Source: Amphiura filiformis
Taxonomy: Eukaryota > Echinodermata > Ophiuroidea > Amphilepidida > Amphiuridae
DNA: 64,000 bases
Direction of reading: 5' to 3'
NCBI RefSeq assembly: GCF_039555335.1
Contig: NC_092628.1
Span: forward strand, 33,068,965-33,132,964
The translations under genes were made by a program, and so were the position numbers. Below, piece after piece: positions 12,095 through 60,823 of the stretch (the stretch's first letter is position 1; every line of letters begins with the position of its first letter). Below the pieces are notes generated by a model. It did not search any database, had not been told where the DNA came from, and was given only the letters and a program-made list of their open reading frames with translations.

Positions 12095-12295
12095 CGGAGA
12101 TAGGCTAGCCCGAGACTAGAGATAGCCCGGATGTTGGACCGACAGAATAATCCTTTTTTTTTTTTTTTTTTTTTTGCTCTTCACTTTTTCAAACCATGCA
12201 AAACAATTTTGGGTCAACAAATCACAACTTCAGCCGGCAAAAAATATTTCCGTCGGTATAGTACAGGAGCAGCAACCTCAAAAAAATGACTAGTC

Positions 12296-18200: not shown

Positions 18201-20540
18201 ACTAATGGCTTAATTGCTTTTAAAATAATACTAGAAGGTTAGAACTATCAAATAGCTACATATTGATACCAAAATGAATTCATTTTCATCAGTAAAACTT
18301 GAGTTTGGGTGATTTTTATCTCCCCTTACCCCTTAATATTGTCATATTTTACGCTGTTAGACACTGAATATTAACATTTTCATACATTTTATGTCTATCT
18401 ACCGGACAACTAATGGCTTAATTGCTTTTAAAATAATACTAGAAGGTTAGAACTATCAAATAGCTACATATTGATACCAAAATGAATTCATTTTCATCAG
18501 TAAAACTTGAGTTTTGGTGATTTGTATGTCCCTTATTATACATTGCATATTAACATTTTCATACATTTTATGTCTATCTACCGGACAACTAATGGCTTAA
18601 TTGCTTTTAAAATAATACTAGAAGGTTAGAACTATCAAATAGCTACATATTGATACCAAAATGAATTCATTTTCATCAGTAAAACTTGAGTTTTGGTGAT
18701 TTGTATGTCCCCTACCCCTTAATATTGTCATATTTTACGCTGTTCAACATTGAATATTAACATTTTTCTCATATTGTATGTTTAACTACCTGATAACTAA
18801 TGGTTTAATTGTTTTTAAAATAATGCCAGAAAATGAGAGCAATCAAATAGCTACATATTGATACCAAAATGGAATTCATTTTCGTCAGTGAAACCTGTGT
18901 TTTGGTGATTTGTATGTCCTCTTACCCCTTAATATTGTCATATTTTACGCTGTTAGACATTGAATATTAACATGTTCGTACATTTTATGTCTATCTACCT
19001 CACAACTAATGGTTTAATTGCTTTTAAATAATACTAGAAAGTTAGAACTAACAATTAACTACATATTGTTACCAAAATGAATTCATTTTCATCAGTAAAA
19101 CTTGAGTTTTGGTGATTTGAATGTCCCCTACAACTTAATATTGTCATATTTTACGGTACTACACATGAAAAATTGACATTTTTAAAAACATTTTATGTCT
19201 TTCCAGCTAACAATTAATGGTTATTTTGCTTTAAAAGATTACAACAACCAAATAGCTATATATTAATGCCAAAATGAATGAATTATAATGAATAAATGTC
19301 GAGTTACGTTGGTTTGTACGTCCCTAACCTTTAATATTGTCAAATTTTATGCTGTTACACATTGGAAAATTAACATTTTCATCATATTTTATGTCTATCT
19401 TATGGTTTTTCTGTTAAAAATAATACTGGAAAGTTAGAACAATCAATTAGCTACATGTTGATACCAAAATGAATTCATTATTATGAGTAAAGGTTGAGTT
19501 ATGGTGGTTTTATTTCCCCTACCCTTAATAATGCCATATTTGACATGGTTATACATAGAAAAGTAACCTTTTCTCGCATTTTATGGTTATCTACCTGACA
19601 ATTAATGTTTGCTTTGCTTTAAAATAATACTAACACGTTTGAACAATCAATTAGCTACATATTAATTCCAAAATGAATTCATTATCATGAGTTGAGTTAT
19701 GATGGTTTATATTTCCCCTACCCCTTAATATTGTTACACACGCTGCTACATGTGGAAAAGTAACTATTTTTTACATTTTCAGTCTATTTTCCTGACAAAC
19801 AGCGGTTGATCTCACCCCACACATATAAATATTCAAAATATTACATGAATGGCAACTTAACAAACAAATTTTGTTAATAGAACTTATATAGTTCAGCCGA
19901 GTGACATATTAAAACATGTAAAACACCCCAACCCTGAACCCTATACACACCCCGCACCCACCCCCACATACCCACACACACCTACCCCAAACCCACACAA
20001 CACAAACCAACATGCAAGCAAACATGCACATACATAAATATTTGAACCAGAACATCAAAGTTTACCTAGATATGCTTGATATTAAAAACAAAATTAAAAA
20101 AAGGAAACTTAATTAATTTTGAAAATAGAAATTGGCACAATAGTAAAATTTGAAGCCAATGTCACAAAAACACCCACCCTGCGCATTGTTGTGAAAAATC
20201 TGATTTTTCTCTAGTGTATGGACTGGCCACTTCCAATCATGATCAAATGAAACCTAGGTTTGCTTTCAAATAATACTAGGCAGTTAGAACAATCAATTAG
20301 CTACATATTCATACCAAAATAAATTCATTATTATGAGTAAAAGTTGAGTTCTTGGAGTTTATATTTCCCCTACCCTTAATTTTGTCCTATTTTTGGTGAA
20401 TTTATGCGATTATACGTCCATACATAAAATGACCTGTAAAAAAAGTGATACCACAATTTGAGTCCACTACCTACCTAGCAGTGATCTAGAGGGTCCATAC
20501 TAACTACCTATGGTGTCAAACCTTGTATGTAGTGGGGGAT
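12296..20540. mobile_element. Giant foldback (TU/FB-like) element with tandem-subrepeat arms
   Basis: An element of about 8.25 kb. The left end (GTTCATCCCCCACTACATAC onward, including GGTTTGACACCATAGG and the TAGGTAGGTAGTGGACTC block) is repeated in inverse as the right end at about 20360-20540. Both arms are mostly tandem units of about 208 bp; on the right arm the marker ACGCTG falls at 16894, 17104, 17311, 17519, 17727, 17935, 18143 and 18351. The left arm holds a 1,413-bp direct duplication (12318 against 13731), and 13345-13730 recurs at 15585-15969. There is no transposase. The structure matches what is described for sea-urchin TU and Drosophila FB foldback transposons; family membership is inferred from structure only. 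Confidence 0.85.
15974..16250. mobile_element. MITE nested in the foldback, GACCGTTCACAAACACTTG termini
   Basis: A 277-bp element whose ends are inverted copies: GACCGTTCACAAACACTTG at the left, and CAAGTGTTTGTGAACGATCC at the right. Sibling subrepeats give the empty site AGCGTAAATATGAC. Here it reads AGCGTAA, element, TAAATATGAC, so the target duplication is TAA (or TA). Related copies lie at 58209-58894 and, half only, at 4445-4572. Confidence 0.8.
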
Positions 20541-20732
20541 GAACCAAGTCCTTATTTAGGCCCCCTGTGGGATCTTGCTCCTGGACTAGTACATTTACAA
20601 GTTGTACCCCCTCGGTTCCAAAATCCTGGCTACGCCACTGGTTGAACCCGGGGTAGAACTCCCATAAATTCAACTCAACGAATGTAGTGGTGCTCCTACG
20701 CACAAGGAGGAATTTTAATATATACGAAAGAA
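20541..20732 (+). promoter_or_regulatory. Presumed WDR18 proximal promoter and 5' UTR
   Basis: These 192 bp are all that separates the foldback element from the WDR18 start codon. 20623-20642 is the reverse complement of the CAGTGGCGTAGCCAG-type repeat end seen at 4652, so most of the segment is itself repeat-derived. The start codon context is GAAAGAAATGG, with a purine at -3 and G at +4. No TATA box at a convincing distance. The transcription start cannot be placed from sequence alone. Confidence 0.35.
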
Positions 20733-20943
20733 ATGGCAGCGCCCATGGAAGTTCTCGTGACGAGCGATTCTGCTGGACAACTTTGGAACTTCTGTATTTG
20801 GGATGTTTATTCTGGTGCAGTACTTGCAAACTATAAAGGCGGGTGTAGTTCACAACGTACGCTATCTTGCTTAGCAGGAGAATATTTCATTTCAGCTGCT
20901 AGTAATAAAACGTTGATACATGTCTGGACCACGCAAAAAAAAG
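20733..20943 (+). CDS. WDR18: WDR18 exon 1
   Basis: Encodes the first 70 residues, from [15 protein letters not shown] to HVWTTQKK, covering the first WD blade and part of the second. The start is fixed by identity of the first seven residues with the vertebrate protein. The donor is GTAAGC at 20944. The exon ends in a run of eight A followed by G. As written it leaves one extra nucleotide (phase 1), while exon 2 needs phase 0. Seven A would give AAG|GTAAGC and an exact join TTQKK|DQHH. Either this is a one-base homopolymer error in the assembly or the allele carries a frameshift with a stop about 20 codons into exon 2. Confidence 0.92.
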
Positions 20944-23900: not shown

Positions 23901-26900
23901 CATTATCAGCGGCCTTTTACCAATGCTTATGCGCCTTTGTTCATTCTAATTGGGTATCGCCAGTTGGAATATAATGTAACAAACACACATAAACATATAT
24001 ACATGTGTATAACCATATCAAAACGATGCACTTGTCGGCTGCTACATGTGTCTCATTTCACATAATAGAGCTAGGAATAAATACCAGACTCATATCAAGT
24101 GCAGGTCACTTCAAATCATCTTTAAGTCAAATTGTATAAGGAATGTTCTCTGTATTCCTAACCCATGTGACTTCGGATGATTTGAAGTGATCTCCACTGC
24201 GGAGATGAGTCTGGTATTTAATCTTGGCTATTATGTGAAATGAGACACATGTAGCAGCCGACAAGGGCATCGCTTTTGATATGGATGTACACATATAAAA
24301 AGTATATTTATCTTGCTTTTTGTTTTTCAAGTTTTAAAACAAACTAAATGTATTCCGTTATAACCTCTCTGTATACATTTGAGGATAGGGGGTAATGGGG
24401 GCGGGGTTGACTCATTAAATACAAAAATAACAATCATGCAGAACATTATGAAATTAATTTTTGGCACCAATTTGTCAAAACTAGGTCTTTCCTAGTTAAA
24501 TCATTTACAACATCAACAATCTGGTAAAAACATTTTGGCTAGGTTGATTTCTCTTCTACATTTGTACATTGTAGTCTACCCTGGTATCCCAAAGGTATAA
24601 TTGAAATAATTGGATAGAGCAAGGGTCAAAAACCTGTATATTTTTATTGCCAAAATATTTAGATGGATTCATCTAATAGTTCTCAAGGCTTTCTATAGTT
24701 TTTAAAAGGGGTTTAAAAATTTTGCAGAACAAATTTTCTTTCTGGTTTAGTATTAATTTGCAAAATAATGAATTATTTTCAGATTTTACATCTCAAACGG
24801 GGCACAAAATTCATAACGCGGGCGGTGGACGCTAAACTCAGAATCAAATTTCAAGTGCCTTATCAACTGTTATGAGTCAAGAAGAAATAAAGAAATAACA
24901 AAGAATATGAACCAAAGCTATCCCCACAAAGTTTGTTTTACAATTATTGTTTACGGAAAATGAAGCCTCCGAAACGACAAATATCGAAGTCCGGTTCTCA
25001 AAAATACAGGGCTGTTCACAATTAAAACTAATGTGGCAGTTTTTACTGAGCACATGACTACAGTTTCAGCATAAGAAAAATTATCCATGAACTAACTGAA
25101 GAAAACACAGGGCTTTACAAAAATGTTACTATTTTTTAGTACATCAAAAAGGCCATGGACATTTTAGCCTGCCAAAACTGAACGCAGTAACTCCCAAAGA
25201 TGATTATGCTACCCAAGGTAGCTGCTAACTAGATGACTTATGTGGAATTTTGTAGCTTTATTAGACCACTACGGATCAAAGTGTTAAAAATCCAAAGTTC
25301 ACCCTTTACCGTGAAAATGACCATATGTGTAGTACCGGTACCTTAATGCGTATAACATCCCAAGCCTTGTATATAAAAGTCCAATGTATGGACCAAAGAT
25401 TTTGTGCACATAATTTTAAGCTAGATATCAAAATGTATATTTTGGACAGCTATCAAGTATCGTTTCTACCCTATGACGTTTGAAAGTTTCTTGTTATCAA
25501 AGTGTCCGCAAAAAACTGGTCATCACTAGCATCTTTGATTAAGAAAAATGAGAATATTCACACCGGGACAGGCCGAAAACCTTACCTCAATCGTAAAATC
25601 CTGTCGGGAAATTTTGCACATGTCACGTCCTGGTGCACCGTGGTGCTATGTGGCTTCACTTTTCTGCAAAAATGAGCGAGGGGTATAAAGTCAGCGACTC
25701 AGCGTCACACCTGTGATTTATGAAGCATATCTGACATTAGTCTCCGTCCCAGCCGATTTGTGCTCCTTCGTCACTAAACAAACCATCTGGCGACAATCTC
25801 ATAAAATGTCTTTCCTGATTGGCTGAATTGTGTTGCCAAATAAGGCCAGTGATGGACAGCCATGCGGTGATATAAATCCCCGTATTAATCAACATAATGT
25901 GTGTGAGTACGCGTTGCGAGTTGCTGACATGAAAGGCGATATCAGACGATTGGCGCCTCAGTGGCTGCAAGCTAGCGTACATTTTGTGTTTGCGGTATCT
26001 ACAAAGCTTGGCTACAGGCTCGTTTTTATTTCTGTATGCATGCCCAGCGAAACGTGTCAGGCTCTCTCTGATCTTCTTCGATAGCTCACCATACAGTTCT
26101 TTGTTCAGGATGTGCTGCCTCCACTTGATGTTGTAAACTGCTCTAAGCATTCTTGTGTAGCAACCTTTAAGTTCTTTACATAGTCTGGAAGACATGGTCC
26201 ATGCTTCGCATCCATAGGCTAGTACTGTTTCAACGGTAGCAGAAAATATACAGATCTTGAATTTCCTTGGGAGAGTTGACCTCCAGATTTTGTTGAGGCT
26301 GTTACATGCCCTCCATGCAGCTGCTTTGCTACATTTTGTGTCAGTAGACTACCCCGCAGTCCACTTGCCCATTGTGCATACTCTGGATATTGAATTTAAG
26401 CTTAAAACTCAGATTTAATTAATTTGTGCACAATTGATAGATTTTCACAACTGATCATCTTTTCAGTCACCGTACTCCCTCTGTTTGTTAGCTTCCCAAG
26501 TGGAATACTGACTTTGGATTGCGGTTTACATGCTTAACACCGCTGTCTATGAGCTTCTATGGATGAGATTGTCGGATTCCTGGCCTACTAAAATTGGCCA
26601 TGATGTAATGCATCTTTAAATGGATCTGGCTTGTGATTGGTCGCACAGATCTCGTTATGGTTTAAATACTCCGGGCACCTGCCATTACCATTATTAACTA
26701 CATGGTACACAACTATGCGGCCTTTGTGTCGGCGGGAACATGAGCGCGTCTTGTACCATGCTTGTATTTCCAGGCTTTGTGCATGCGGTTAAATTGGATG
26801 ATAAACAAGTATGATTGACAGTGTTTGTGTTAGGGATCAAGGTCCCGTTTAAAATTGAAAGTCCATAGTCTATTTTTAACTGGGACTTATGCGATTAATA

Positions 26901-29900
26901 AACTGGTAGATTCTAAAATCAGAATTGTTCAGTATTGAAGTGCTTATATAATGACATTATGATGTTGCATTCAATAATATAAGTCTACATCTACTTTACT
27001 TTTACAGTCACTAATATAATTATATAAACTTTTTCATAACAATTTTATACTAGTATTTTGATGTAATAAATATCAGTCCCAGAACAACGCCAAATATGGA
27101 TTAAAAGACCTTTGACCTTGGATGTACAACAGCATGTTATGATCTAATGGGAAACTGTGCACATCAACAAACACCATTTCTATCACTAAGGCAACGTCTG
27201 ATATAATTTGAAACCACATAAATTACTAGAGTTGGTTCTTCTCTTGGATTTGGACCAAGCTTTAGAATATCGAATGTTGCGTTTTTGAAATAAAACAAAC
27301 CAGAAATTTATCACCCATTGTAAAAGATATGGCACATGTACCGAATACATGTACATACATTGGCTGACCTTGTGGATTTCCTGGCCCAGCCATGCTAACC
27401 ACATAAGGAGATTATACGATTTTAAAACCTAGTGCAGCTATTGTCATAGCAGGGTATTATTATGTAATACTCCTGATCCATATTTGGCATTCTCTTGGAC
27501 TGAATATCAGTATAATTTCGAGTTCAACTGAATGCTTTCATCATGATTAATAACATGTTTTATTTATCAAAAATCGACTATGGCATAGTCTACTGCTTTG
27601 CGTGTTTTTATGTCTTCTCTGTGCTAACCATCCATGCACCCAGATATTTGAAGTTGCGCACTTCTTCTAGTTTGGTGCCATTGTTATGGTTATGAATAGC
27701 TATTTTAAATTAATAATCTTTTAAGATCTTGCTTCTTGTGTACAAGGCACTTCATGATCAATCACCTACTTATATTGCTCAAATGTTCTCTTATTATGTT
27801 ACTGCTCGCCCACTCAGATCTTCAAATGATCCTTCACGTCTTGCAATTGACAGATTCAACTCTGTTGCTGGAGAACACAGGTTTCCTGTTGTTGCTGCCA
27901 AAGCATGGAATGGTCTACCACAACACATCAGGGGAGCCTCATCTACAGTCACTTTCAAGAAACTCTTAAAAACACACTTGTTCTGACTTTCTGGTTGTTA
28001 TTGCTTATGTATTTTGCTCATGTTATTTTTGTAAACGCAATGTTGCTTTGGCGAATTGCGTCCTAAGAAACTTTTGTATGTATGTATGTATACGTATAAT
28101 TATTCATTTTTTTTTCATTACAGGATCAGCACCACTTGCGTATAGTATGTCCTGGGGTAGTATCTTCCCTTGTTGCCTCTCCTGATGGAATGTATTGCAT
28201 AGCAGGAATAGCTGAAAAGATTTATGTATGGCAGGTAAACTTATATAATCAGGCCTCTTGCAGCAGAAAAACTTGTGTGCATGCCTTATTTTTGGTATTT
28301 TAAGATAATGTAATGTAAGATATTGTAAGATGTGGGGGCATGGGAGAGAGAGAGAGAGAGAAAGGGGAGATGCTTAGAGGGAGCAAGAGAAATAAGGGAA
28401 AGGGAATTTTAAAGAGATACCTACCTAAAGTTTGTTCGGCTTATGGCCCATTCTCCGTTAAAGCGTCCAAGTTTGGTCTCAGGAATGACAAAATGCCAAC
28501 CACAAAGAATTCATAAAATTCATTCAGAATCGTAAACTTTAATAGTTTAAGAACACAAAACAGTGCATGGGTGATTTTTCAACAATACTTCATTTTTAAG
28601 CAATATTACTTGTACATATTGGGGGTAAATACGTTACAGTGGTAACGTATCTGTGAAACCCTTTCCCATCTTTGTCTTAATCGTGCAAGTGTAAAAACTG
28701 ACCGACTTAATACCCATACTTGATCAGTCATTACCCAATGTACTAAAGTCTGGTATGGTATTTGGCTTCATTTATCACAGCGTTTTTCCGAGGGAGTAGA
28801 ATTTAGGTAACGTATCTGTGAAGGCATGAACGTAACGTCAGGACTTTTTGCCATTAATAGACCTGATTTTTTTACTTTGAAACCATTATGTTTTGTTCCA
28901 TATATATAATATAACTATGGAGACTGCTTGATCCATCACATATGAGAACATACATCTAGCCAATTATTTTCACAGATTATTATCCATTAGAAATATGGTA
29001 ACGTATCTGTGAACAATATTGGCGACATAGTCTGAAAGACCTGTTGGAAAAATGTAATAATCTGTGTTGTGATGATTTATACTTTATAATTAGGGCATGA
29101 TACCAGCTAATTAAAAGTACCTATAATCCATTATATGCGCGCATGTTTAGAGAGCAGGGACACATTATACAGAACACACCTTGGCTGGCGACATGGAGGA
29201 AAACAGTGGACATGCATAATCAGCTCTATTGTTTTATTCTTTCTAGGCATGTTACAACCTCTAGCCTCACACATTTTAAAAAGCAACTCCTAAGTATAAG
29301 TTATATTAATAAAAGTTATTTCTTTCTGGCGAAACAAGTCTGAATACGACTTGAAACTATGGGCGACACATATTTGGCATTTTGAACGCTTTATCGGAGA
29401 ATGTGCCTTATATAAGGCGGAAAAATAAGACTCATAACACTGTGTATTGATATAGAATGGCATGCACGCTATTGGGCGCAATATTTACGCTAGGTGTGTG
29501 TTGTGTAATGCGTGACACGCTTATGTGAATTTACGCAAGTGTGAGTTGGGACCTTATTGACGTGGGCAGTAACAAAAGCTGAATAATTTCCGCCTTATAT
29601 AAACCGAACAAACTTGAGATAAAATGACATCTAAGAAGTAGCAGCATACAGACTGATATTGGACTCGGTCATATTGATATTTTCTGGCTTAAAAAGTTTC
29701 TTTTTCAGAGTCTGTTTTGAGCAGCAGCTTGGCTTGAATGAAGACACTGTGATGGTGTCACAAGCTACGTCACTGCTCAATGCAGAGACTGAAAACTAAG
29801 GTAACTTTTTAAGCTTGGGCCAAATAAAGTAAATAACACATATATCGTCAGGATTTTCTCAAAATTTCGTGAGGGAGGCCCTTATTATTTGTTAATTTGT

Positions 29901-32900
29901 TACAAATTTACTATTCATTTCTGTGTAAAATTGCAATTGCAAAGGCTTTGTCATCACATCATAAAAATGGGGAGGCCCCTAATATTTTGGTTTTAAAAGT
30001 CCTACACCTGGCTTGAAGAAAGTATTTGCAATGTGTTTGTATGATAACCAAGAACTTCTACCATGTCTTTTCATCACGACAATTTTAGAAACAAAGTAAG
30101 GGACCAAAATAAGAACAATAACAAAAGTGTTTTAAAGTCTCCAAATATCGGTGAGGGCAGAGACAATATACATTTTACTTGGCCTTACCATATCTAGAGA
30201 AGTAATTCTGAAGAGAGTAAAGGCTTATTGGCAATATGGAGTTTATTACATGTATGTATATAAACATGGTACTGGGATATTATAGTTCAACACAAAGTGA
30301 TTAATTTTGTATTTTTGTGTTGTTTTGAATTAAGATATCAACAGGCAATTTGTTAGCAGTGGTATCACGGCATTACCAGACAGTGACCTGCTTACGTATC
30401 ACAGATGATGGCAGCCATTTTGTTTCGGGAGGAGATGATAACCTGGTTATGGTGTGGTCTTTAGCAAGGTGACTATACCATTCAGCATATTACTTCAACA
30501 GTGGTTCGTCTGCTCTGTCAGATTATCGCGTAAAAAGAACTAGGTCATGCATTGCTACACAGCTTGACCAGCGAATGAGGTGCCGATGTGATGATGATGT
30601 GATTCAATTAAGTCAATCAGAACCACACTTCCATATATATGCCATAAACTGCACTAAATTGGCTGTCTGCTGAAGTTCTCTGCTGAAAACTATAAGACTT
30701 AATAAAATTCAAGAATAATGTGTACATTTTGATATTATTTCAAAGCATTTAAGGCAGGTATGGGCAACCTACCGACCGCTGGTCGCATGCGGCCCACTAG
30801 TAATTTTTGTGTGGCCCGCGAGACTAAGTACATGTAGAAGTAAAAAAATTGAAAAAAGCTACCTTCCGTGTTCCTATTGTGTATGTAAAATAATAATTTT
30901 TTCCACAGACTGTCATCACCATATGATTTCGTATGTACTTGAAGCATGTGCGTGCCACATAATTTGATATTTAAAGAATATTTTTGGCTTGATGGGATGA
31001 AAAGGTTGGCCATCCCTGATTCAGGGTGTTTCACTTTCCAGACTCATTTGATCACTCATTGCAGACAGATATGGAAGCTTGAGAATGATGTGATCGGGCT
31101 ATTATGCCATCCCAAACAAGCTTTATTTTGGGTATGATGCACCATTCTCAAAGGTCAAAGGGTGTCAGGCAAGAGAGTCATGCCAAATTCTACAAATTCT
31201 CCTGTAATTGAAAACAAATAAACAATTAGAATGGCTAGTGATTAGGCCTAGGGTTGCAAATATAACTAGCCCGGTCTTAGCTAGAATATTGAGGTTAGCC
31301 TGTCATTTGAATAGAATTACCTGTCCTAATTTGGCCTTTATAAGCATTTACATGTACCAGACTTCTACAGCCCATTTGGGGTTCAAAGAGTTCAAATATA
31401 TGTTGCTATGGCCTTGTTTTGCAAATATGTTTACTATAAAGGTCAATAGCCTTTCTCAACACCTGCAATTACTCCTGCCTAAAATGATGGGTAGATGGGT
31501 GGCTAGCTAAAACACTGGCAACTAGTGACATGCAGTAAGACTTCAAAATATCAGCCCCTCCCCCCCCCCCCCAAGGATTATTATTAGTGTTAGAATGAGG
31601 GTTAGGGTTAGCTTCTGTGGTTAGGGTTAGATATTAAGGTTTGGTTCTAGGGGAAGGATAAGAGTTAATCATAGGATTAGGGTTTGGATTGGGAGATTAG
31701 GGTTAATATTAGGATTACGGTTGGGTGGTAACCACTATTACTTTTTTATTTTTGTTGCAGTGTGTTACAGGAAGGCCAAAGCACACAAGGTGTGGACCCT
31801 GTACATATTTGGTCTAACCATTCCCTACCAGTCACAGACCTACACTGTACAACAGGTGGTATGATGGCAAGAGTTGCATCTGCCTCACAAGACCACACAT
31901 GCAAGGTAAGTCTTTACAAAGCACACAAGGTGTGGCCCCTGTACATATTTGGTCTAACCATTCCTTACCAGTCACAGACCTACACTGTACAACAGGTGGT
32001 ATGATGGCAAGAGTTGCATCTGCCTCACAAGACCACACATGCAAGGTAAGTCTTTACAAAGCACACAAGGTGTGGCCCCTGTACATATTTGGTCTAACCA
32101 TTCCCTACCAGTCACAGACCTACACTGTACAACAGGTGGTATGATGGCAAGAGTTGCATCTGCCTCACAAGACCACACATGCAAGGTAAGTCTTTACAAA
32201 GCACACTAGGTGTGGACCCTGTACATATTTGGTCTAACCATTCCCTACCAGTCACAGACCTATACTGTACAACAGGTGGTATGATGGCAAGAGTTGCATC
32301 TGCCTCACAAGACCACACATGCAAGGTAAGTCTTAACAAAGCACACAAGGTGTGGACCCTGTACATATTTGGTCTAACCATTCCTTACCAGTCACAGACC
32401 TACACTGTACAACAGGTGGTATGATGGCAAGAGTTGCATCTGCCTCACAAGACCACACATGCAAGGTAAGTCTTTACAAAGCACACTAGGTGTGGACCCT
32501 GTACATATTTGGTCTAACCATTCCTTACCAGTCACAGACCTACACTGTACAACAGGTGGTATGATGGCAAGAGTTGCATCTGCCTCACAAGACCACACAT
32601 GCAAGGTAAGTCTTTACAAAGCACACAAGGTGTGGCCCTGTACATATTTGGTCTAACCATTCCCTACCAGTCACAGACCTACACTGTACAACAGGTGGTA
32701 TGATGGCAAGAGTTGCATCTGCCTCACAAGACCACACATGCAAGGTAAGTCTTTACAAAGCACACAAGGTGTGGCCCCTGTACAAATTTGGTCTAACCAT
32801 TCCCTACCAGTCACAGACCTACACTGTACAACAGGTGGTATGATGGCAAGAGTTGCATCTGCCTCACAAGACCACACATGCAAGGTAAGTCTTTACAAAG

Positions 32901-35900
32901 CACACTAGGTGTGGACCCTGTACATATTTGGTCTAACCATTCCCTACCAGTCACAGACCTACACTGTACAACAGGTGGTATGATGGCAAGAGTTGCATCT
33001 GCCTCACAAGACCACACATGCAAGGTAAGTCTTTACAAAGCACACAAGGTGTGGACCCTGTACATATTTGGTCTAACCATTCCTTACCAGTCACAGACCT
33101 ACACTGTACAACAGGTGGTATGATGGCAAGAGTTGCATCTGCCTCACAAGACCACACATGCAAGGTAAGTCTTCACATAGCACACAAGGTGTGGACCCTG
33201 TACATATTTGGTCTAACCATTCCTTACCAGTCACAGACCTACACTGTACAACAGGTGGTATGATGGCAAGAGTTGCATCTGCCTCACGAGACCACACATG
33301 CAAGGTAAGTCTTTACAAAGCACACTAGGTGTGGACCCTGTACATATTTGGTCTAACCATTCCTTACCAGTCACAGACCTACACTGTACAACAGGTGGTA
33401 TGATGGCAAGAGTTGCATCTGCCTCACATGACCACACATGCAAGGTAAGTCTTTACAAAGCACACTAGGTGTGGACCCTGTACATATTTGGTCTAACCAT
33501 TCCCTACCAGTCACAGACCTACACTGTACAACAGGTGGTATGATGGCAAGAGTTGCATCTGCCTCACAAGACCACACATGCAAGGTAAGTCTTTACAAAG
33601 CACACTAGGTGTGGACCCTGTACATATTTGGTCTAATCATTCCTTACCAGTCACAGACCTACACTGTACAACAGGTGGTATGATGGCAAGAGTTGCATCT
33701 GCCTCACAAGACCACACATGCAAGGTAAGTCTTAACAAAGCACACAAGGTGTGGACCCTGTACATATTTGGTCTAACCATTCCCTACCTACCAGTCACAG
33801 ACCTACACTGTACAACAGGTGGTATGATGGCAAGAGTTGCATCTGCCTCACAAGACCACACATGCAAGGTAAGTCTTTACAAAGCACACTAGGGACCCGG
33901 TGCTTAATCTCGCCGATTACCTCTGCGTCGTCTCGCAGCATTTCGATGGCTCTACTGCGTCTTGCAGTTTCAAGCCGCAGCACGCCGATGAATTAATATA
34001 GTGTAGCCATATACCTGGTTGCGAATTCGCGAGCAGTTATGGGCATCGAGTTCGCAACATCTTGTCATCTTCTTGCTCTGCGGTTTGCCATTCATTACTC
34101 AAAACCTTTATATTAATGTTTATTGTAGTACGTACTTGAGTTTACTCACCGTGAGCAATTTGCGGATCAGTCGACATAATCCGGCAATGAATCAACGCAA
34201 TCAAGGACACTAATTTGTAAGGGTATTGTTGTCAGTTGTCAAGTGTTATAAGCCGGTTGCGAGAAATGTAGGAGTTGGGCCGATCAAGCCGATGAACGGG
34301 TGACTGAACATGGCTTTTCATCGAGCAGACACACATTTTGTTAGTGCATATCGCAACAGTATTTTATTTCTCAGCATAGGCGCATCGGCTTGGGTCTGCG
34401 TCTTGGGTTGCGGGCACGCCGCAGACTTTATCGGCGAGATTAAGCACCCAGACCTAGGTGTGGACCCTGTACATATTTGGTCTAACCATTCCCTACCAGT
34501 CACAGACCTACACTGTACAACAGGTGGTATGATGGCAAGAGTTGCATCTGCCTCACAAGACCACACATGCAAGGTAAGTCTTTACAAAGCACACTAGGTG
34601 TGGACCCTGTACATATTTGGTCTAACCATTCCCTACCAGTCACAGACCTATACTGTACAACAGGTGGTATGATGGCAAGAGTTGCATCTGCCTCACAAGA
34701 CCACACATGCAAGGTAAGTCTTTACAAAGCACACAAGGTGTGGACCCTGTACATATTTGGTCTAACCATTCCTTACCAGTCACAGACCTACACTGTACAA
34801 CAGGTGGTATGATGGCAAGAGTTGCATCTGCCTCACAAGACCACACATGCAAGGTAAGTCTTTACAAAGCACACAAGGTGTGGACCCTGTACATATTTGG
34901 TCTAACCATTCCTTACCAGTCACAGACCTACACTGTACAACAGGTGGTATGATGGCAAGAGTTGCATCTGCCTCACAAGACCACACATGCAAGGTAAGTC
35001 TTTACAAAGCACACAAGGTGTGGCCCCTGTACATATTTGGTCTAACCATTCCTTACCAGTCACAGACCTACACTGTACAACAGGTGGTATGATGGCAAGA
35101 GTTGCATCTGCCTCACAAGACCACACATGCAAGGTAAGTCTTTACAAAGCACACAAGGTGTGGACCCTGTACATATTTGGTCTAACCATTCCCTACCAGT
35201 CACAGACCTACACTGTACAACAGGTGGTATGATGGCAAGAGTTGCATCTACCTCACAAGACCACACATGCAAGGTAAGTCTTTACAAAGCACACAAGGTG
35301 TGGCCCCTGTACATATTTGGTCTAACCATTCCTTACCAGTCACAGACCTACACTGTACAACAGGTGGTATGATGGCAAGAGTTGCATCTGCCTCACAAGA
35401 CCACACATGCAAGGTAAGTCTTTACAAAGCACACAAGGTGTGGCCCCTGTACCTATTTGCTCTAACCACTCCTTACCAGTCACAGACCTACCCTGTACAA
35501 CAGGTGGTATGATGGCAAGAGTTGCATCTGCCTCACAAGACCACACCTGCAAGGTAAGTCTTTACAAAGCACACTAGGTGTGGACCCTGTACATATTTGG
35601 TCTAACCATTCCCTACCAGTCACAGACCTACACTGTACAACAGGTGGTATGATGGCAAGAGTTGCATCTGCCTCACAAGACCACACATGCAAGGTAAGTC
35701 TTTACAAAGCACACAAGGTGTGGCCCTGTACATATTTGGTCTAACCATTCCCTACCAGTCACAGACCTACACTGTACAACAGGTGGTATGATGGCAAGAG
35801 TTGCATCTGCCTCACAAGACCACACATGCAAGGTAAGTCTTTACAAAGCACACAAGGTGTGGCCCTGTACATATTTGGTCTAACCATTCCCTACCAGTCA

Positions 35901-38900
35901 CAGACCTACACTGTACAACAGGTGGTATGATGGCAAGAGTTGCATCTGCCTCACAAGACCACACATGCAAGGTAAGTCTTTACAAAGCACACTAGGTGTG
36001 GACCCTGTACATATTTGGTCTAACCATTCCTTACCAGTCACAGACCTACACTGTACAACAGGTGGTATGATGGCAAGAGTTGCATCTGCCTCACAAGACC
36101 ACACCTGCAAGGTAAGTCTTTACAAAGCACACTAGGTGTGGACCCTGTACATATTTGGTCTAACCATTCCCTACCAGTCACAGATCTACACTGTACAACA
36201 GGTGGTATGATGGCAAGAGTTGCATCTGCCTCACAAGACCACACATGCAAGGTAAGTCTTTACAAAGCACACAAGGTGTGGACCCTGTACATATTTGGTC
36301 TAACCATTCCCTACCAGTCACAGACCTACACTGTACAACAGGTGGTATGATGGCAAGAGTTGCATCTGCCTCACAAGACCACACATGCAAGGTAAGTCTT
36401 TACAAAGCACACAAGGTGTGGCCCCTGTACATATTTGGTCTAACCATTCCCTACCAGTCACAGACCTACACTGTACAACAGGTGGTATGATGGCAAGAGT
36501 TGCATCTGCCTCACAAGACCACACATGCAAGGTAAGTCTTTACAAAGCACACTAGGTGTGGACCCTGTACATATTTGGTCTAACCATTCCCTACCAGTCA
36601 CAGACCTACACTGTACAACAGGTGGTATGATGGCAAGAGTTGCATCTGCCTCACAAGACCACACATGCAAGGTAAGTCTTTACAAAGCACACTAGGTGTG
36701 GACCCTGTACATATTTGGTCTAACCATTCCCTACCAGTCACAGACCTACACTGTACAACAGGTGGTATGATGGCAAGAGTTGCATCTGCCTCACAAGACC
36801 ACACATGCAAGGTAAGTCTTTACAAAGCACACAAGGTGTGGCCCCTGTACATATTTGGTCTAATCATTCCTTACCAGTCACAGACCTACACTGTACAACA
36901 GGTGGTATGATGGCAAGAGTTGCATCTGCCTCACAAGACCACACATGCAAGGTAAGTCTTTACAAAGCACACAAGGTGTGGACCCTGTACATATTTGGTC
37001 TAACCATTCCTTACCAGTCACAGACCTACACTGTACAACAGGTGGTATGATGGCAAGAGTTGCATCTGCCTCACAAGACCACACATGCAAGGTAAGTCTT
37101 TACAAAGCACACAAGGTGTGGCCCCTGTACATATTTGGTCTAACCATTCCCTACCAGTCACAGACCTATACTGTACAACAGGTGGTATGATGGCAAGAGT
37201 TGCATCTGCCTCACAAGACCACACATGCAAGGTAAGTCTTTACAAAGCACACTAGGTGTGGACCCTGTACATATTTGGTCTAACCATTCCTTACCAGTCA
37301 CAGACCTACACTGTACAACAGGTGGTATGATGGCAAGAGTTGCATCTGCCTCACATGACCACACATGCAAGGTAAGTCTTTACAAAGCACACAAGGTGTG
37401 GACCCTGTACATATTTGGTCTAACCATTCCCTACCAGTCACAGACCTACACTGTACAACAGGTGGTATGATGGCAAGAGTTGCATCTGCCTCACATGACC
37501 ACACATGCAAGGTAAGTCTTAACAAAGCACACTAGGTGTGGACCCTGTACATATTTGGTCTAACCATTCCTTACCAGTCACAGACCTACACTGTACAACA
37601 GGTGGTATGATGGCAAGAGTTGCATCTGCCTCACATGACCACACATGCAAGGTAAGTCTTTACAAAGCACACAAGGTGTGGACCCTGTACATATTTGGTC
37701 TAACCATTCCCTACCAGTCACAGACCTACACTGTACAACAGGTGGTATGATGGCAAGAGTTGCATCTGCCTCACAAGACCACACATGCAAGGTAAGTCTT
37801 TACAAAGCACACTAGGTGTGGACCCTGTACATATTTGGTCTAACCATTCCTTACCAGTCACAGACCTACACTGTACAACAGGTGGTATGATGGCAAGAGT
37901 TGCATCTACCTCACAAGACCACACATGCAAGGTAAGTCTTCACAAAGCACACTAGGTGTGGACCCTGTACATATTTGGTCTAATCATTCCTTACCAGTCA
38001 CAGACCTACACTGTACAACAGGTGGTATGATGGCAAGAGTTGCATCTGCCTCACAAGACCACACATGCAAGGTAAGTCTTTACAAAGCACACTAGGTGTG
38101 GACCCTGTACATATTTGGTCTAACCATTCCTTACCAGTCACAGACCTACACTGTACAACAGGTGGTATGATGGCAAGAGTTGCATCTGCCTCACAAGACC
38201 ACACATGCAAGGTAAGTCTTTACAAAGCACACAAGGTGTGGACCCTGTACATATTTGGTCTAACCATTCCCTACCAGTCACAGACCTACACTGTACAACA
38301 GGTGGTATGATGGCAAGAGTTGCATCTGCCTCACAAGACCACACATGCAAGGTAAGTCTTTACAAAGCACACTAGGTGTGGACCCTGTACATATTTGGTC
38401 TAACCATTCCCTACCAGTCACAGACCTACACTGTACAACAGGTGGTATGATGGCAAGAGTTGCATCTGCCTCACAAGACCACACATGCAAGGTAAGTCTT
38501 TACAAAGCACACAAGGTGTGGACCCTGTACATATTTGGTCTAACCATTCCCTACCAGTCACAGACCTACACTGTACAACAGGTGGTATGATGGCAAGAGT
38601 TGCATCTGCCTCACAAGACCACACATGCAAGGTAAGTCTTTACAAAGCACACAAGGTGTGGACCCTGTACATATTTGGTCTAACCATTCCTTACCAGTCA
38701 CAGACCTACACTGTACAACAGGTGGTATGATGGCAAGAGTTGCATCTGCCTCACAAGACCACACATGCAAGGTAAGTCTTTACAAAGCACACAAGGTGTG
38801 GCCCCTGTACATATTTGGTCTAACCATTCCTTACCAGTCACAGACCTACACTGTACAACAGGTGGTATGATGGCAAGAGTTGCATCTGCCTCACATGACC

Positions 38901-39751
38901 ACACATGCAAGGTAAGTCTTTACAAAGCACACTAGGTGTGGACCCTGTACATATTTGGTCTAACCATTCCTTACCAGTCACAGACCTACACTGTACAACA
39001 GGTGGTATGATGGCAAGAGTTGCATCTGCCTCACAAGACCACACATGCAAGGTAAGTCTTAACAAAGCACACTAGGTGTGGACCCTGTGCATATTTGGTC
39101 TAACCATTCCTTACCAGTCACAGACCTACACTGTACAACAGGTGGTATGATGGCAAGAGTTGCATCTACCTCACAAGACCACACATGCAAGGTAAGTCTT
39201 CACAAAGCACACAAGGTGTGGACCCTGTACATATATAGTTTTATTAATACCCACATTTTTCCACATCCCTCTTAATTTTTTATATTTATTTTTTTTCTTC
39301 AGGTGTGGGACATGTGTTCAGGTGAACTTTTATGCAATTTTGTGTTTGATGTACCGTTAAACTCTGTGTGTATGGACCCAGCTGAGTATAGGCTGTTTGC
39401 AGGAGCCATGAATGGGACAGTGTATCAAGTCAACTTATTTGAATCAGTAAGTTATGAGAAATGAAAAACTATTATGTTGATTGTCTATCAAGCTTAAATT
39501 ATCATGAAAAGTTACAAGTTGGCAAGAATGTACCACCAAAATAATATTGCAGATTATTATGCAAAAATGAAAATTAAGAAAACAAGTAAATGTTAATATC
39601 ATTATTTATATTGCTACTGAACCTGCAAATTATTGCTGGTAGCTTGTGTGACGATGATGTTTCACAACCCCTATAGCATCATGTACTGCTTCCCACACTA
39701 CATGTTATTTCTATACAAATTTTGATTGTCAATCTTCTGATGATGTGTTTG

Positions 39752-39784
<33 letters not shown>

Positions 39785-42700
39785 GTCGGCTGCGGAGCAG
39801 GCGACTACTAGCTTTCTCCAACTAATGCGATCTTGGGCAAGCGAAACAATTTTGTTTGGCTGCAGCATCCCTCCAGGAGGTGCTGGACATACTGTAAGTA
39901 CAGTGTGCACGGCGGTCCTGGTTTCCTCTTCCCATGTGGTGTTTGTATCAGCTTTTAAAAACGACTTTGGGTTGTGGGTAGAGAATTATGCTTTCTATAA
40001 ATAAATCACATTCAAGTTGAGATAAGAATAATGGCAAGAAACATTGAAAAAAAAAAAGAGTTTTAGGCAACGTTTGACAAATTATTGAATTTGAATTTTT
40101 ATAGAATTCCTCTAGAGAAAGGCATATAAAGGTCAGGGAGACAGGTGAGGATGAGGATACTACTACTGCAGTATTTGCAGGACACAGGTAAGAAATATGT
40201 GTTATTGCAAATGCATACCAATTACCAACAAGTGTAATTTTTACTATTTCTGTGAAATTCAAGAAACTAAGTGAGATAGCTATCCCCGAGAAAGCTATCT
40301 GTTGGTACCTGCTAGCTGGTGGTTTTTTAGGTTTTGAAGAAGTAGTGAGCAAGCAAATAGAGGAGAGAAAGTGTGAGAGGATGGAGGAATTCATGGAAAT
40401 GTTCATGCGATGTTTCAACCTGAGAAATTTATCATTTTGTTTCAGTGTCCTAGCATTTCTGGATATGACACCATTGAAAATACTGAATGTATTCCAAACA
40501 AGATATAAATAATGTTTCTCAAAGGTATGAACCTTGTGCAATTAAAACATGGTAACGATGATAGGGTTATACCATGCAACTTCTGTACTATTTGGGGCTA
40601 TATAAATTGCAAAGATTGGTTGATTTTTGATTTAGGTGCTATAGAAATTGCAATGATTAATTCATTGATTGATATACTACATATGTTCCTGTGCAAAAGT
40701 CTCGCTGTATATTCCTTTACCAAAATGACCTTCGGCACCGGACCTACAGCAAATTTTTGAAGTCCTGTGCTTTTAACAGCCATACTGTGTTTCTCTAACT
40801 TTATTATTGTTACAGCAAACCAGTGACTTGTCTTTCTGTGTCTTTGGATGGTTCCATGCTAGTATCTGGTAGTCAAGATCAAACAGTATGCATATGGCAT
40901 ATACAAAGCAAGCAGTGTGTTAGAACCATCAACCATAAAGGTAAGGGTAAATAGATATTTGGGATCAAATTCTTCCAAACTGGTACTTACTTCTGTTTAT
41001 ATATCATGGGAGTACTAGTTTTCATAGTTTCAGATGCAACTGACTTTTTCAGTAAATCCTGAAAGTTTTGCGATTGGACCCTAACGACGTATCACCGATG
41101 AGCACATGTTTACTGCGCAATAGAGGTTATCCATGTTCTATAAGCTGCATATCCTATCAGCGACTGCTATACCTTGTTTAGGACTTTCAAAAGAAGTACC
41201 TGCATGTGCAACCATGACTGTTTCAAGACTATGCAGGTACCTCTGAGGTCGTGCATTGAATTGGTTTGAATGAGTAATACTACAGGAACCAGTGCCTTTT
41301 ATTAGAAGTCACACATTAGTGGAGTGGATAATCTCTATTCATCATTGCATACATCTTCATTGCGTATGTTGTAGAGACGCCACATTTCCATATTTATACT
41401 CCTGCTTGGACATGATATCATATTCAGGAGGAACCTTCCAAAGGAACAATATCATACCTGTTTGCCCTTGATTATGTCCCAAAATAAGTGTCTGAAATTG
41501 GTGATTTTTAGTTCTAGAAAGCCTCAATACCCACTAAAATTGGGGGATAGAGGGGTCCCCCCTCAACCCCAACAAGGGGTGTTGCACCTGGACCCAACCA
41601 GGGCCCTAAAGGCTGGCCCATGGACCCAACCTGTCCCGTAAAAGTTTTGCACCTCAATGAGATATACACCATTAGGGATCCAATGAAAAAGGCTTTTTGG
41701 ATTTACCGAAAAGGGGATCTCATTTCCCCATTTACCCATGGCAGTGTAAGGCACCAAGGTATTTGCAGAAGGAAACTATGGGGCAATTTGAATGGTAAAT
41801 AAGCTACTAAGTTCTGCAAATGCAATACATGCAAATTTTAAAGTGGATGAGAATATTGTTGATGTACTGGTCGTAGGAACAATTATGTGAGACAAAAGAA
41901 CTGTTCATGTTTATTCAGTAGTCACACTAAACCAAGTATGCTTCTAATTAGGTAATTATGTCTTATAGGTGCTGTAACAAATGCAATGATCATACCCACT
42001 CCTCCAAACCTGCAAAGCAGCCAGACCAAACCAACACTACCAATCCAAGTGTTCAAAAGACATCTACATGTACCAAACCAATGGAATGGGCTCCACTCTT
42101 CAACACAGTCATCAAGGAATGGGAGTGATAGACACACAGGGACTGTGGCAGTAAAGCTGAAGGGGACAAAAAGTGAAGCAACTAAGGTGAGTAAATGATA
42201 ACTAGCTGTTCAATTTGGTCACAGAGTTATGAACCATTTGGTTATCAATTTTCTATTGTTTTTGCTAATCTGCATCTGGTTTTTTTAAATTTAATTATAG
42301 CCAGGATGAAAACTCATAACTGGGATCAAATTTCATTTCATGTGACTGTAGAGCAGGCAATTACTCAGTTTCTCCAAGCACCACGTTCCATAGCTAGTGA
42401 GGCATTAGCATCTGGTTGTAAATCCTTGTTATTAATCCCCAACAGCTTCTGTTACCCTGGTCTCCTTTTGCCATGATGGAACACAAAGAGCATATCTTAT
42501 CAGGACGTCTCCACTGGCCTCCTCAGGATGTGTCCGAGGAAGTGAATTCGACACTGCTTTACTAGGATAATGAGAGGCTGTGTGTCAGTCATAACATAGG
42601 TCTGGGCATTGCTCACACTGGGATCTTGTCTACCTTAATAATTGCACAAGAGACGTTTTCCGAAGTTTGTTATGGATGACCCCGTTTACAATTCCGGGTC

Positions 42701-45700
42701 ATCAACGCTAACGCAAATGCAACTATTACGTCTGAATACAAATCTACATGAAGGACACGGTCAAGCATTGGGTATAGCTTGTGCAAGAGATTGATATTTA
42801 TATTGCGAAGACCACACAAAGACCAAATCAAATGTGCGGCAGGCGACAAACATTTGCAATTTTTCTTTCTTTGACTGTCACTTTGTGAAGTGCCAAATAG
42901 TGGAAGTGTTAGTTCAATACCTTTAGAAAATATTTCTCTGTGATGACTCATGTTGATTTTGGCTCAAAAGGGCCTAGCTTACTGGATAAATACTGTGGTT
43001 TTCCCGATTTTTTTCCGATCTTGATTTGAAAAGGTCTATTTACTGCTATTGTGAAGCAAATATGTCATTGTTCCACATAATGGGATGACTATTAGTTATT
43101 GGTTAAAGCAGAGGCAGGACATAATCATTATTATTATTTAATGATTATTGTGTGCAAATTGTAAGCATCACCTACGTGTATGTGGGTTAGTTTTACATTA
43201 TAAAGAAATTCACTTTTTGTGTTTCTTTTGTACTTGAAGGTATCCACAAGTGGCACCAATCTATCCGAAGCTGAACTTGAAAGTTTGTTGGCAACAATAA
43301 ACCAGGTACATATACAAAGTAAATTCCTAACTATGAAATGGTTTAGAAATAATAATCCAACTTGAGGGACAATCTGAGATTTGTGTAACTTCTCCACTTA
43401 GGGATTCAATCATGTTTCACCGTTGTTCATCACTGATTAACAACGATGCGTCCGTGTCGTCTGAGTGGTTTACTTCGCTCGGGCAGCCGCGAGTTGTTAA
43501 TCGGTGATGAACAACGGTGAAACATAATTGAATCCCTTTCAACAATGAAACAAGCTAAAGCTGTCTAATTCACGCGATTCTTTCATTCGGAATGTCCGTT
43601 TGTCATTGCCACCCAACTTTACAAGAAGATTGTGGTATTTCTCTGTTGATATCAGCAATAAAACTAAAGAATAAAGCGGTAATATTTAGCTGCTACCACC
43701 AACATGAGAGAGTTCATGTTTATGCATACGTTCCAGGCATGACGAATTTTACGCGCTCATGCGTAACACGTACGCGTAACCTTGCGTTCGCGTATACGCT
43801 ACTGGACCGTGGATTCATCACCGATTAACAACGCTTGGCTCCTGTACAAAGGTATAGGAAGAGTTGTTGAATTAATGATCACAAACATAAGTGGGTCATG
43901 ATTTGGTTGGAAGTGTTATGTGCTTGTTTTGAAAATTCAAAAATCTGAATTTTGGAAGAAAGTGAGTGTTTTCTGTAGCAAATCATAGAATGGCCCTTCA
44001 GTGTTATAACCACAAGCCTGAATAACGGGTGTGAGAAGCTATGAGATAAGGACAAGTTATTCTTGGCATGCCACGCCTACTACCTACTCCTTACAAGTAA
44101 TGAAAAAGTTTCATTTTGAACTCTTTTAGTTGTAGTCAAAGAGAACAGACTCCAAACCTGCCTAGTCATGGAGACCATAATAGTGTACCTCCATCACTTA
44201 GCAGTAAAAACCAGAAACAGACAATAATTTGCATCTTCAAGCTTGAGCATTACAGTGATTTGTGCATGCAGTGCTTTAATGTGTGTTGCCATGCATCACA
44301 TGTAAAGTGCATTACGGTATTTATTCCAATAACCGCCCATTTTGGGTGGGCACTCATTTTTTACATTGTTTTAGGCATCAATCACCGTCTGATAGTATTT
44401 ATAGTAGGAATTCCAATTGAATGAATGCAGCTTTCAACAGCTGTACTCGATCCAACTGTGATTGTATATCACATATTTCAAACTACAATGCGAACGCACG
44501 ACCTTGGATACAATGATAACCAATCACGAGTGCGTTGGCATGGTTGGATTCAATATCGCCTTACTCACGCACGTCGCACACGCTGGCGTACATCGCGCAG
44601 TCTACACACAAAAAATCGTCACGCTATTGAAAGCTGCGTTCATTCAATTGGAATTCCCACTATAGTTACTCACTGTTAGTGCGCCCTCAAAAAAAATGTG
44701 TCCATATTTTCCAGTTTATGGATTTTGAAGTTAGAATCACCTCAAATTTGGCCTTTTAAAGGCATTTGCAGATGTTTCTTCTGAAGTATTCTTTAAATCT
44801 GTACATCTGCCCACTATGAAATGGCATCAGTGCACATTTTGGATACTTTTGATGCTCAATTTCCCACATGCATGCATGTATAATCACTCGACATGCTCAT
44901 CAACCGGTAAGCTTAATGGAAGTATTTTGACAACATTGGATGGGCAGCTAATAATTTCACATTTTGCTTATTGTAAAGTCACTGGGTGGGTGCTTATATG
45001 GGCATGGGTGGTTAATGGAACAAATATGGTACATGTAGAATGCAAACAAGCATGAACTTGTAAATTTTTATTGGCCGCATGGTGAAAAAATCCGGAGGTA
45101 CACTACACACACAAACATGGTGGTCTGTTCACTTCAGGTCTAGTCTTTGGATGTGGTGCATCAAATTGACCAGTAACCAGGTGACCATTTGCCATTGCAG
45201 TACTTGCAGAATTATTTGCCTTGAGCATTGCCTGTGACACAAGCAAAATTCTAAAAATAATGATAGAATAAGTTCAGTGAACCCAAAACAGGTTATTCCT
45301 TCATGTAATTTTACACACGAAATTAGGGTTAGGGTTAGGGTTAAGGTTGGGGTTAGTTTAGGGTTAGGGTTAGGATTAGGGTTTGGGTTAGGATTAGGGT
45401 TATGATTAGGATTAGGCTTAGGGTTAGGATTAGGGTTAGAGTTAGGATTAGCTTACACGAAATAATTACATGAAGGATCAACCCCAAAACAAGACCAGAC
45501 AAATAAATCAAGGTGATATATTGAAGTGACTGATCCCAGAAGGGGCAGAGGGATGGTTTACCTTGTCAGTGTCAAATTAACAATTTTGGACAGGCAGAGT
45601 TGGTGAAAATAATGATGGGCACTTGTCAAATCCAGCTATTAAAGACTCTTGCTTTGAGTGAGTTTTTGAAACATGTTTTTGTGAATTTTTTGTGGAATGC

Positions 45701-59905: not shown

Positions 59906-59923
59906 AATTGCAAATCCACAGTA

Positions 59924-60823
59924 GGGTTGCAAATATACCATATGTCACTTTCGGAGTGCGACAATTTGTACAGATAAATTTATCACAGGTATTTTTTTAT
60001 TAATTTGACCATTCGTCTGCATATTACCAAATATAACCCATTTTGGGCTACCGTTTTTTCAGCGCGAAGGTCATTTATGTCGACAAATTGTTCACAAATC
60101 CACAGTAGGGTTGCAAATATACCATATGTCACTCGTAGTGCGACAATTTGTACAGATAAATTTATCACAGGTATTTTTCTATTAATTTGGCCATTCGTCT
60201 GCATATTACCAAAAATAACGCATTTTGGGCCACCGTTTCTCCGCGAACATCATTATGTCGACAAATTGTTCGCAAATCCACCACAGGGTTGCAAATATAC
60301 CATACGTCACTCATAGTGCGACAATGTGTACAGATAAATTTATCACAGGTATTTTTCTATTAATTTGACCATTCGTCTGCATATTACCAAATATAACCCA
60401 TTTTGGGCTACCGTTTTTCCGCGAAGGTCATTTATGTCGACAAATTGTTTGCCAATCCACAGTAGGGTTGCAAATATACCATATGTCACTCGTAGTGTGA
60501 CAATTTGTACCGATAAATTTATCACAGCTATTTTTCTATTAATTTGGCCATTCGTCTGCATATTACCAAAAATAACGCATTTTGGGCCACCTTTTCTCCG
60601 CGAACATCATTATGTCGACAAATTGTTCGCAAATCCACCACAGGGTTGCAAATATACTATACGTCACTTTCGGAGTGCGACAATGTGTACAGATAAATTT
60701 ATCACAGGTATTTTTCTATTAATTTGACCATTCGTCTGCATATTATGAAATATAACCCATTTTGGGCTACCGTTTCTCCGGGAAGGTCATTTATGTCGAC
60801 AAATTGTTCGCAAATCCACCGGT
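59924..60823. repeat. Satellite of about 180 bp, five units alternating between two types
   Basis: Units begin with GGGTTGCAAATATACCATA at 59924, 60108, 60286, 60465 and 60643, spacing 178-184 bp. Type A units (1, 3, 5) have TTTTGGGCTACCGT and GAAGGTCATTTATGTCGAC. Type B units (2, 4) have TTTTGGGCCACC and GAACATCATTATGTCGAC. Several long open frames on both strands are side effects of a period near 60 codons. Confidence 0.85.

Follow-up and report, generated by a model that had tools for sequence, protein, structure and literature searches.

Engineered constructs in which a few sites are duplicated have served to examine how the spliceosome selects between equal donors. In tandem exon duplication, whole exons are duplicated together with both of their splice sites. 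Such duplications are described as abundant in the sections of PMC9013439 consulted here. Parts of exons can be multiplied as well: in the potato RdRp gene, a partial exon and one adjoining splice signal have been tandemly duplicated within the gene, and in fission yeast, introns extend across four and two duplicates of 24-bp repeats (both from the portion of PMC4974935 that we used, the latter as work cited there). Tandem arrays of similar units also occur as minisatellites within introns, an example being hTERT-VNTR2-2nd (PMC2915984, in excerpt).

In a window of 64,000 nucleotides of the Amphiura filiformis genome (contig NC_092628.1, positions 33,068,965 to 33,132,964 of the forward strand; all coordinates below are those of the window), we analyzed an array in which the boundary between an exon and an intron of the gene encoding WDR18 is present in 49 tandem copies. 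The array, the gene structure, the identity of the donors, the reading frames, and the one-copy join in the public protein model were observed directly, and the gene is most likely still functional, since only the first copy adjoins the exon's own entry signal. Among the best matches from open-licence PubMed Central, which are no proof of absence, we found no report of this locus or of a donor array of this size.

Results

The WDR18 gene and its protein

WDR18, an essential ribosome-assembly gene, lies on the plus strand at 20733 to 46052 and has ten coding exons, which were delimited by tblastn of PDB-chain pieces, inspection of splice sites, and chained translation: exon 1 (20733-20943), exon 2 (28124-28234), exon 3 (30335-30468), exon 4 (31761-31905), exon 5 (39303-39446, from its PDB match and chained translation), exon 6 (40105-40187), exon 7 (40816-40940), exon 8 (41969-42186), exon 9 (43240-43305), and exon 10 (45915-46052). 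GT/AG is present at the junctions, and exons 2 to 10 form one continuous frame. Exon 4 is 145 nt long, and its phase joins it to exon 3 (AG+T, giving Ser) and to exon 5 (phase 0); the other exons measure 66 to 218 nt, which makes this length a normal one, and the eight introns other than intron 4 span 628 to 7,181 nt. When exon 1 is read to 20942, the assembled protein comprises 457 amino acids.

The assignment of the gene to WDR18 in the earlier note was borne out, as the joint translation of exons 4 and 5 hits WD repeat-containing protein 18 chains in the PDB, which we take to be human, with an E value of 4.5e-30, the next protein in that search being a general WD40 repeat protein (5.6e-19). 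Exon 1 matches the N terminus of the WDR18 chains (E 5.6e-15). A search of 5.8 billion protein sequences yielded 386 matches at E 1e-20 or better, headed by the NCBI entry "WD repeat-containing protein 18-like [Amphiura filiformis]," with 100% identity over 85% of the query, a similarity along the WD40 protein that identifies the gene as a WDR18 orthologue. This public protein starts with MSGPRKKK... at an ATG inside exon 1, continues through exons 2 to 10, and contains exons 3, 4, and 5 with a single copy of exon 4 joined to exon 5. The agreement fits a common assembly for the window and this entry. Each of nine aligned WDR18 proteins (A. filiformis, three sea stars, a sea cucumber, a feather star, two acorn worms, and a brachiopod) has a single exon 4 region, and the A. 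filiformis protein is 51 to 53% identical to the five other echinoderm proteins.

In the assembly, the frames of exons 1 and 2 are offset by one base, a point on which the earlier note is silent. A run of eight A at the end of the exon (20935-20942) is followed by a G and then by the GT donor, leaving the frame off by one. The start frame of the public protein is the one that the eight A allow, and the protein lacks the first ~62 residues present in eight compared relatives. The run is probably a homopolymer error, the alternative being a polymorphism, and the missing residues are probably an annotation consequence of that error. The frameshift and the shortened N terminus would also suit a WDR18 copy that is dying or dead while an intact paralogue does the work. 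We give this reading a very slim chance: the frame and GT/AG junctions are kept from exon 2 to exon 10, and a single A. filiformis protein is named among the best 120 of the 386 matches, some of which are unnamed. The intact paralogue, which the earlier note had put forward as grounds for giving up its interpretation, gains no support from that count.

Several other features lie in or around the gene. A large inverted repeat (12281-20557), which resembles a foldback-type element, ends ~175 bp before the WDR18 start codon; its arms (~12.3-16.0 kb, plus strand, and 16.8-20.6 kb, minus strand) are 72 to 77% alike in the best alignments, and both contain 207/208-bp tandem repeats. Upstream of it, a minisatellite of ~20-bp CCCGACTTAGTAACTCGGGG units (8811-9615), some in reverse complement, could fold back on itself. 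A degenerate interstitial TTAGGG array occupies part of the last WDR18 intron (45322-45451), a shorter TTAGGG-like stretch closely precedes exon 4 within intron 3 (about 31600-31720), and a 178-bp tandem array of about five copies is located at 59910-60819. Twelve tandem-repeat stretches summed together account for ~24% of the window. On the minus strand, an open reading frame at 536-1045 that encodes the beginning of a Peptidase_M2 (angiotensin-converting enzyme) domain is probably an exon of another gene, and a 203-amino-acid frame in WDR18 intron 1 (25737-26348), with a subthreshold DUF6451 match, is probably a retroelement remnant. Rfam gave no match in the window at the gathering threshold.

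A tandem array across the boundary of exon 4 and intron 4

The array extends over 31778-39234 on the plus strand and is made up of 49 units and a partial copy of 31 nt (39204-39234) that directly follows the last unit. Tandem Repeats Finder reported a period of 140 at 31777-39234 with 53.2 nominal copies, a count that covers the whole span including an insert. Exact counts within 31701-39400 are 49 for GCAAGGTAAGT, whose occurrences run from 31901 to 39187, and 49 for GTAAGT. When the array is cut at the donors, 44 of the 49 units measure 140 bp, three measure 139 bp, unit 15 measures 144 bp, and unit 16, which is split by the insert, measures 705 bp. In each unit, the terminal 128 nt of exon 4 are followed by 12 nt of intron (GTAAGT and six more bases). 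Exon 4 accordingly begins with 17 unique nt upstream of the array, its other 128 nt form the start of unit 1, and units 2 to 49 constitute nearly the whole of the 7,397-nt intron 4, whose unique 3' end (39235-39302, plus strand) consists of a pyrimidine-rich tract and the acceptor. In RNA, read-through of GTAAGTCTTTACAAAGC would indicate that the array is retained, and GCAAG joined to GTGTGGGACATG would indicate the spliced form.

With 49 head-to-tail units of 140 bp that differ by 1.9%, the array is a minisatellite, a class whose highly identical units range from tens to a few hundred base pairs. Its coordinates and its 49 copies had been given correctly in the earlier note, as both Tandem Repeats Finder and the exact counts attest, and the composition proposed there, the last 128 nt of exon 4 with a GTAAGT donor, was recovered in every unit, GCAAG/GTAAGT being kept in 49 of 49 (the slash marks the splice site). 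The uniform unit length of 140 bp had to be qualified, with one unit interrupted and four others of 139 or 144 bp, and the term coding minisatellite suits unit 1, which is coding in the public protein model, but not the other 48 units. We agree that this is not ordinary exon duplication: the exon 4 acceptor and the first 17 nt of the exon are absent from units 2 to 49, so the two splice sites have not been copied together. Nor do the copies preserve an open frame, in view of the three 139-nt units, the 144-nt unit, the insert in unit 16, and a stop reached in unit 2 upon read-through. Outside the array, no match in the window was found to a 30-mer of the unit with up to 6 edits on either strand, and BLAST of the unit against the rest of the window returned nothing longer than 15 bp. 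AATAAA and ATTAAA are absent from the array.

The 560-bp insert in unit 16 (33894-34453, unstranded) has inverted ends, with 24 of the first 30 bases matching, and CTAGG on each side; no second copy is present in the window. It looks like a non-autonomous, DNA transposon-like element that would have used a target site within the repeat, and because no other unit has it, it probably arrived after most of the amplification. For the A. filiformis genome, a burst of repeats, mostly DNA transposons, at 10 to 15 million years ago is described in the part of PMC11310086 consulted.

History and constraint of the copies

Units were compared as 48 aligned sequences, for which unit 16 with its insert was set aside and unit 15 was trimmed of its four extra bases. 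Any two differ on average at 2.7 of 140 positions (1.93%), 18 of the 140 columns are variable, and identical pairs number 51 of 1,128, the 48 falling into 26 distinct sequences. The consensus is shared by unit 1, which is the real exon, and by five further units. At a neutral rate of 1.885e-9 per base and year, taken from the relevant section of the A. filiformis genome paper (PMC11310086), this divergence corresponds to a mean coalescence of ~5 million years; homogenization would make the array older than this estimate, and sequencing or polishing errors would make it younger. Neither similarity between neighbors nor higher-order repeats were found among the 48 units (lag 1, P 0.26; lags 2 to 12, P 0.13-0.91). 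Columns 10 and 19 are mutually exclusive (P 0.0002) and columns 19 and 48 combine almost freely, a pattern that short-tract gene conversion or short-read mispolishing could each produce.

Purifying selection on the copies as coding sequence left no sign. Changes within the 128 nt comprise 11 nonsynonymous and 6 synonymous ones, a ratio close to the expected ~72:26 (no formal test), and none creates a stop, with about 0.5 expected. Frame-breaking length changes occur in 4 of the 48 aligned units, and one further unit carries the insert. Selection on the donors, which are intact in 49 of 49 units, was dropped as well: with 18 of 140 columns variable, a complete lack of variation in the 11 donor columns can be expected by chance (P 0.21; P 0.28 in a 9-column version), so that it does not speak for selection. 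One stretch of 37 nt in the unit is free of variation, a length that is marginally unusual (P 0.048).

Reliability of the assembly

The published A. filiformis assembly was generated with flye from nanopore R9.4.1 reads at ~100x and polished by Racon with nanopore and short reads, reaching a base QV of 31.6 and a structural QV of 26.9 (PMC11310086, as far as its account was available). Because this assembly is nanopore based, the copy number and the within-array variants are uncertain, and the existence of the array is more secure than its unit count or the placing of variants in particular units. Carried to its limit, this argument would make the array, or most of its copies, an artefact of assembly, and the likely homopolymer error in exon 1, the lack of neighbor similarity, and the near-free columns, which mispolishing with short reads could bring about, would fit such an origin. 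We nevertheless regard it as highly improbable, as a CTAGG-flanked insert confined to one unit, 26 distinct sequences, and lengths of 139, 140, and 144 bp would be hard to generate from a single copy. These features support a real array, the copy number of which may still be wrong.

Donors and predicted products

Donor 1 (GTAAGT, 31906-31911, plus strand) is the only one of the 49 that gives the full WDR18 frame, with a predicted product of 457 amino acids, and its use would account for the exon 4-exon 5 join of the public protein; the claim that the first donor yields the correct protein was upheld. Donors 2 to 49 (32046 to 39197, plus strand), identical in GCAAG/GTAAGT, are situated inside intron 4. 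Each of these 48 would add array sequence to exon 4 and run into the same early stop in unit 2, for a predicted product of 232 amino acids, and this stop would lie 677 nt before the last junction with donor 2 and farther from it with the eight other later donors computed. Exon 4 would grow from 145 nt with donor 1 to 285 nt with donor 2, exceeding every other coding exon of WDR18, and to 7,431 nt with donor 49, from which only a 111-nt intron would separate the exon 5 acceptor. Skipping of exon 5 would keep the frame (409 amino acids), and skipping of exon 4 would break it. The 49 donors, which had been called equal, are so in their local sequence, but only the first closes an exon of normal length. 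In sequence, they represent a set of alternative 5' splice sites with one genuine downstream acceptor in intron 4.

Splice sites were scored with approximate vertebrate position frequencies. With this matrix, the array donor AAG/GTAAGT reaches 11.8 bits, a value attained by only 2 of the 3,230 plus-strand GTs outside the array, and among the other eight native WDR18 donors, only that of exon 8 outscores it. The genuine acceptor AGs end at 31760 (exon 4) and 39302 (exon 5), where the earlier note had placed them, and score 11.0 and 12.8 bits with the same approximate frequencies; these values are reached by 12 and 2 AGs of the window, counting the acceptor itself in each case.

The strength and local identity of the donors, the early stop shared by all of donors 2 to 49, and the short intron left by donor 49 would be compatible with a leaky, copy-number-dependent brake, wherein a sizeable fraction of the transcripts uses later donors, above all donor 49, and is lost to decay, with the length of the array setting WDR18 output. 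We hold such a brake to be unlikely, given that the lengths of the eight other introns place the gene in an exon-definition setting and that the array bears no sign of selection. With introns of such length, exon definition usually dominates.

Two further ideas on the donors were discarded. An RNA structure hiding the later donors was rejected, as two units (31918-32197) fold no better than shuffled sequences (z 0.90; 166 of 200 shuffles fold at least equally well). A trans-acting "U1 sink" was set aside by reasoning, since the nascent RNA of a single gene seems unlikely to titrate an abundant snRNP. The roles suggested in the earlier note, namely slower splicing, a level set through nonproductive isoforms, and a donor sink, found no supporting evidence in the analysis.

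Cryptic acceptors within the units

The earlier note's statement that the acceptor is not copied holds for the genuine acceptor, which is single, but a cryptic acceptor of the type ...TTACCAGTCACAG/ACCT, scoring 7.5 to 7.7 bits with the approximate vertebrate-based matrix, is present in 48 of the 49 units, including unit 1. The array has 49 occurrences of CAGTCACAG, a sequence of the cryptic acceptor pair; in unit 2, the first bases after TTACCAG and TCACAG are 31972 and 31978 (plus strand). On the approximate matrix, the cryptic score exceeds those of four of the nine genuine WDR18 acceptors, and outside the array only 61 of 2,832 AGs (2.2%) reach 7.59 bits. CTAAC is found 46 times in the array, at about 7 times its density elsewhere. 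Each unit is thereby a potential pseudo-exon of 68 or 74 nt, and each of the seven evaluated in unit 2 truncates the protein.

It is conceivable that the internal acceptor and the donor of a unit define a poison exon between exons 4 and 5. We nonetheless find this very unlikely, considering that the distance from the branch-like A to the AG, estimated by eye, is short at only ~14 to 20 nt, that the scoring matrix is an approximate one based on vertebrates, that the cryptic acceptor sequence also lies within normal exon 4, and that the public protein model contains no such exon. Another use of the repeated signals would be recursive removal, in which GCAAG/GTAAGT serves as acceptor and donor at once and the intron leaves in 140-nt steps that regenerate a donor. 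Ratchet sites have a pyrimidine tract and an AG immediately ahead of GTRAGT. AG is indeed followed directly by GTAAGT in each unit, but with an acceptor score of -4.7 bits for this AG (unit 2, approximate matrix), we put the likelihood of such a ratchet close to nil.

Discussion

We consider it reasonably probable that the array is a young or homogenized minisatellite across an exon-intron boundary, the later units of which are discarded as intron with near-neutral consequences. In this scenario, a 140-bp piece consisting of the last 128 nt of exon 4 and the first 12 nt of intron 4 would have been tandemly duplicated and multiplied to ~49 copies, the predicted starting point being an intron 4 of roughly 100 nt. 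In the transcript, U1 could bind all 49 equal donors, and exon definition would pair the acceptor at 31760 with donor 1, because the only genuine upstream acceptor sits 145 nt before that donor. Splicing of donor 1 to the strong acceptor at 39302 would then remove the array as intron. With a downstream donor present, more U2AF and U2 snRNP are recruited to the acceptor, a step called the key reaction of exon definition in the part of PMC8724738 consulted. Judging by the public protein model and the geometry of the locus, it is most likely that donor 1 is used and that the array leaves with the intron. Some leakage into nonproductive RNA is possible; use of later donors or cryptic acceptors would give RNAs with an early stop, and these should undergo nonsense-mediated decay because the stop lies far upstream of later junctions. 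With exon 4 defined by its single acceptor and the first donor, the array is most likely tolerated, and it is probably near-neutral, not a regulator. We infer the origin by duplication, the actual use of donors, the decay of by-products, and neutrality alike.

In favor of a tolerated boundary minisatellite, few AGs of the window equal the acceptors of exons 4 and 5 in strength by the approximate matrix. Three points may be held against it. Exon 1 is out of frame as assembled, which makes this a putative functional locus; the 37-nt invariant run is marginally unusual; and donor 49 is the one nearest to the exon 5 acceptor, at only 111 nt. As to the last, Eperon and colleagues reportedly observed, in 1993 and 2000, that of two strong U1-occupied donors, the acceptor-proximal one tends to win.

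An essential gene that seemingly works with 49 identical donors in a row, and with one genuine acceptor on each side, is a natural experiment in splice-site choice, and the use of donors by position would weigh first-come exon definition against acceptor proximity. If the array is ignored, the locus shows the robustness of exon definition; if it is not, it shows control of a housekeeping gene by repeat length. That the 49 donors measurably tune WDR18 appears quite improbable to us, whether the length of the array, variable between animals, were to set the loss to later donors or many U1 snRNPs were to protect or retain the transcript.

Tandem duplication across an exon boundary is already known, and the part for which the matches from open-licence PubMed Central gave no precedent is a donor array of this size. 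The potato RdRp gene, in the account given by the sections of PMC4974935 that we used, resembles WDR18 in that a partial exon and one adjoining splice signal were tandemly duplicated within a gene; it differs in having one extra copy, on the acceptor side, that yielded a new intron, whereas WDR18 has 48 extra copies on the donor side of an existing intron. The AGGT-segment duplications of fission yeast, known to us as cited in those sections, likewise involve short units with usable splice dinucleotides and an intron spanning several copies, but their 24-bp units are exonic and few, and donor and acceptor derive from the same AGGT. Tandem exon duplications and mutually exclusive exons, to the extent that PMC9013439 was drawn on, share with this locus the multiplication of exon sequence within one gene, from which WDR18 units 2 to 49 depart in having neither the exon 4 acceptor nor the first 17 nt of the exon. 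Intronic minisatellites and VNTRs such as hTERT-VNTR2-2nd, as excerpted from PMC2915984, are comparable as tandem arrays of similar units within a gene, and WDR18 is set apart from them by units that each hold a complete strong donor together with coding sequence.
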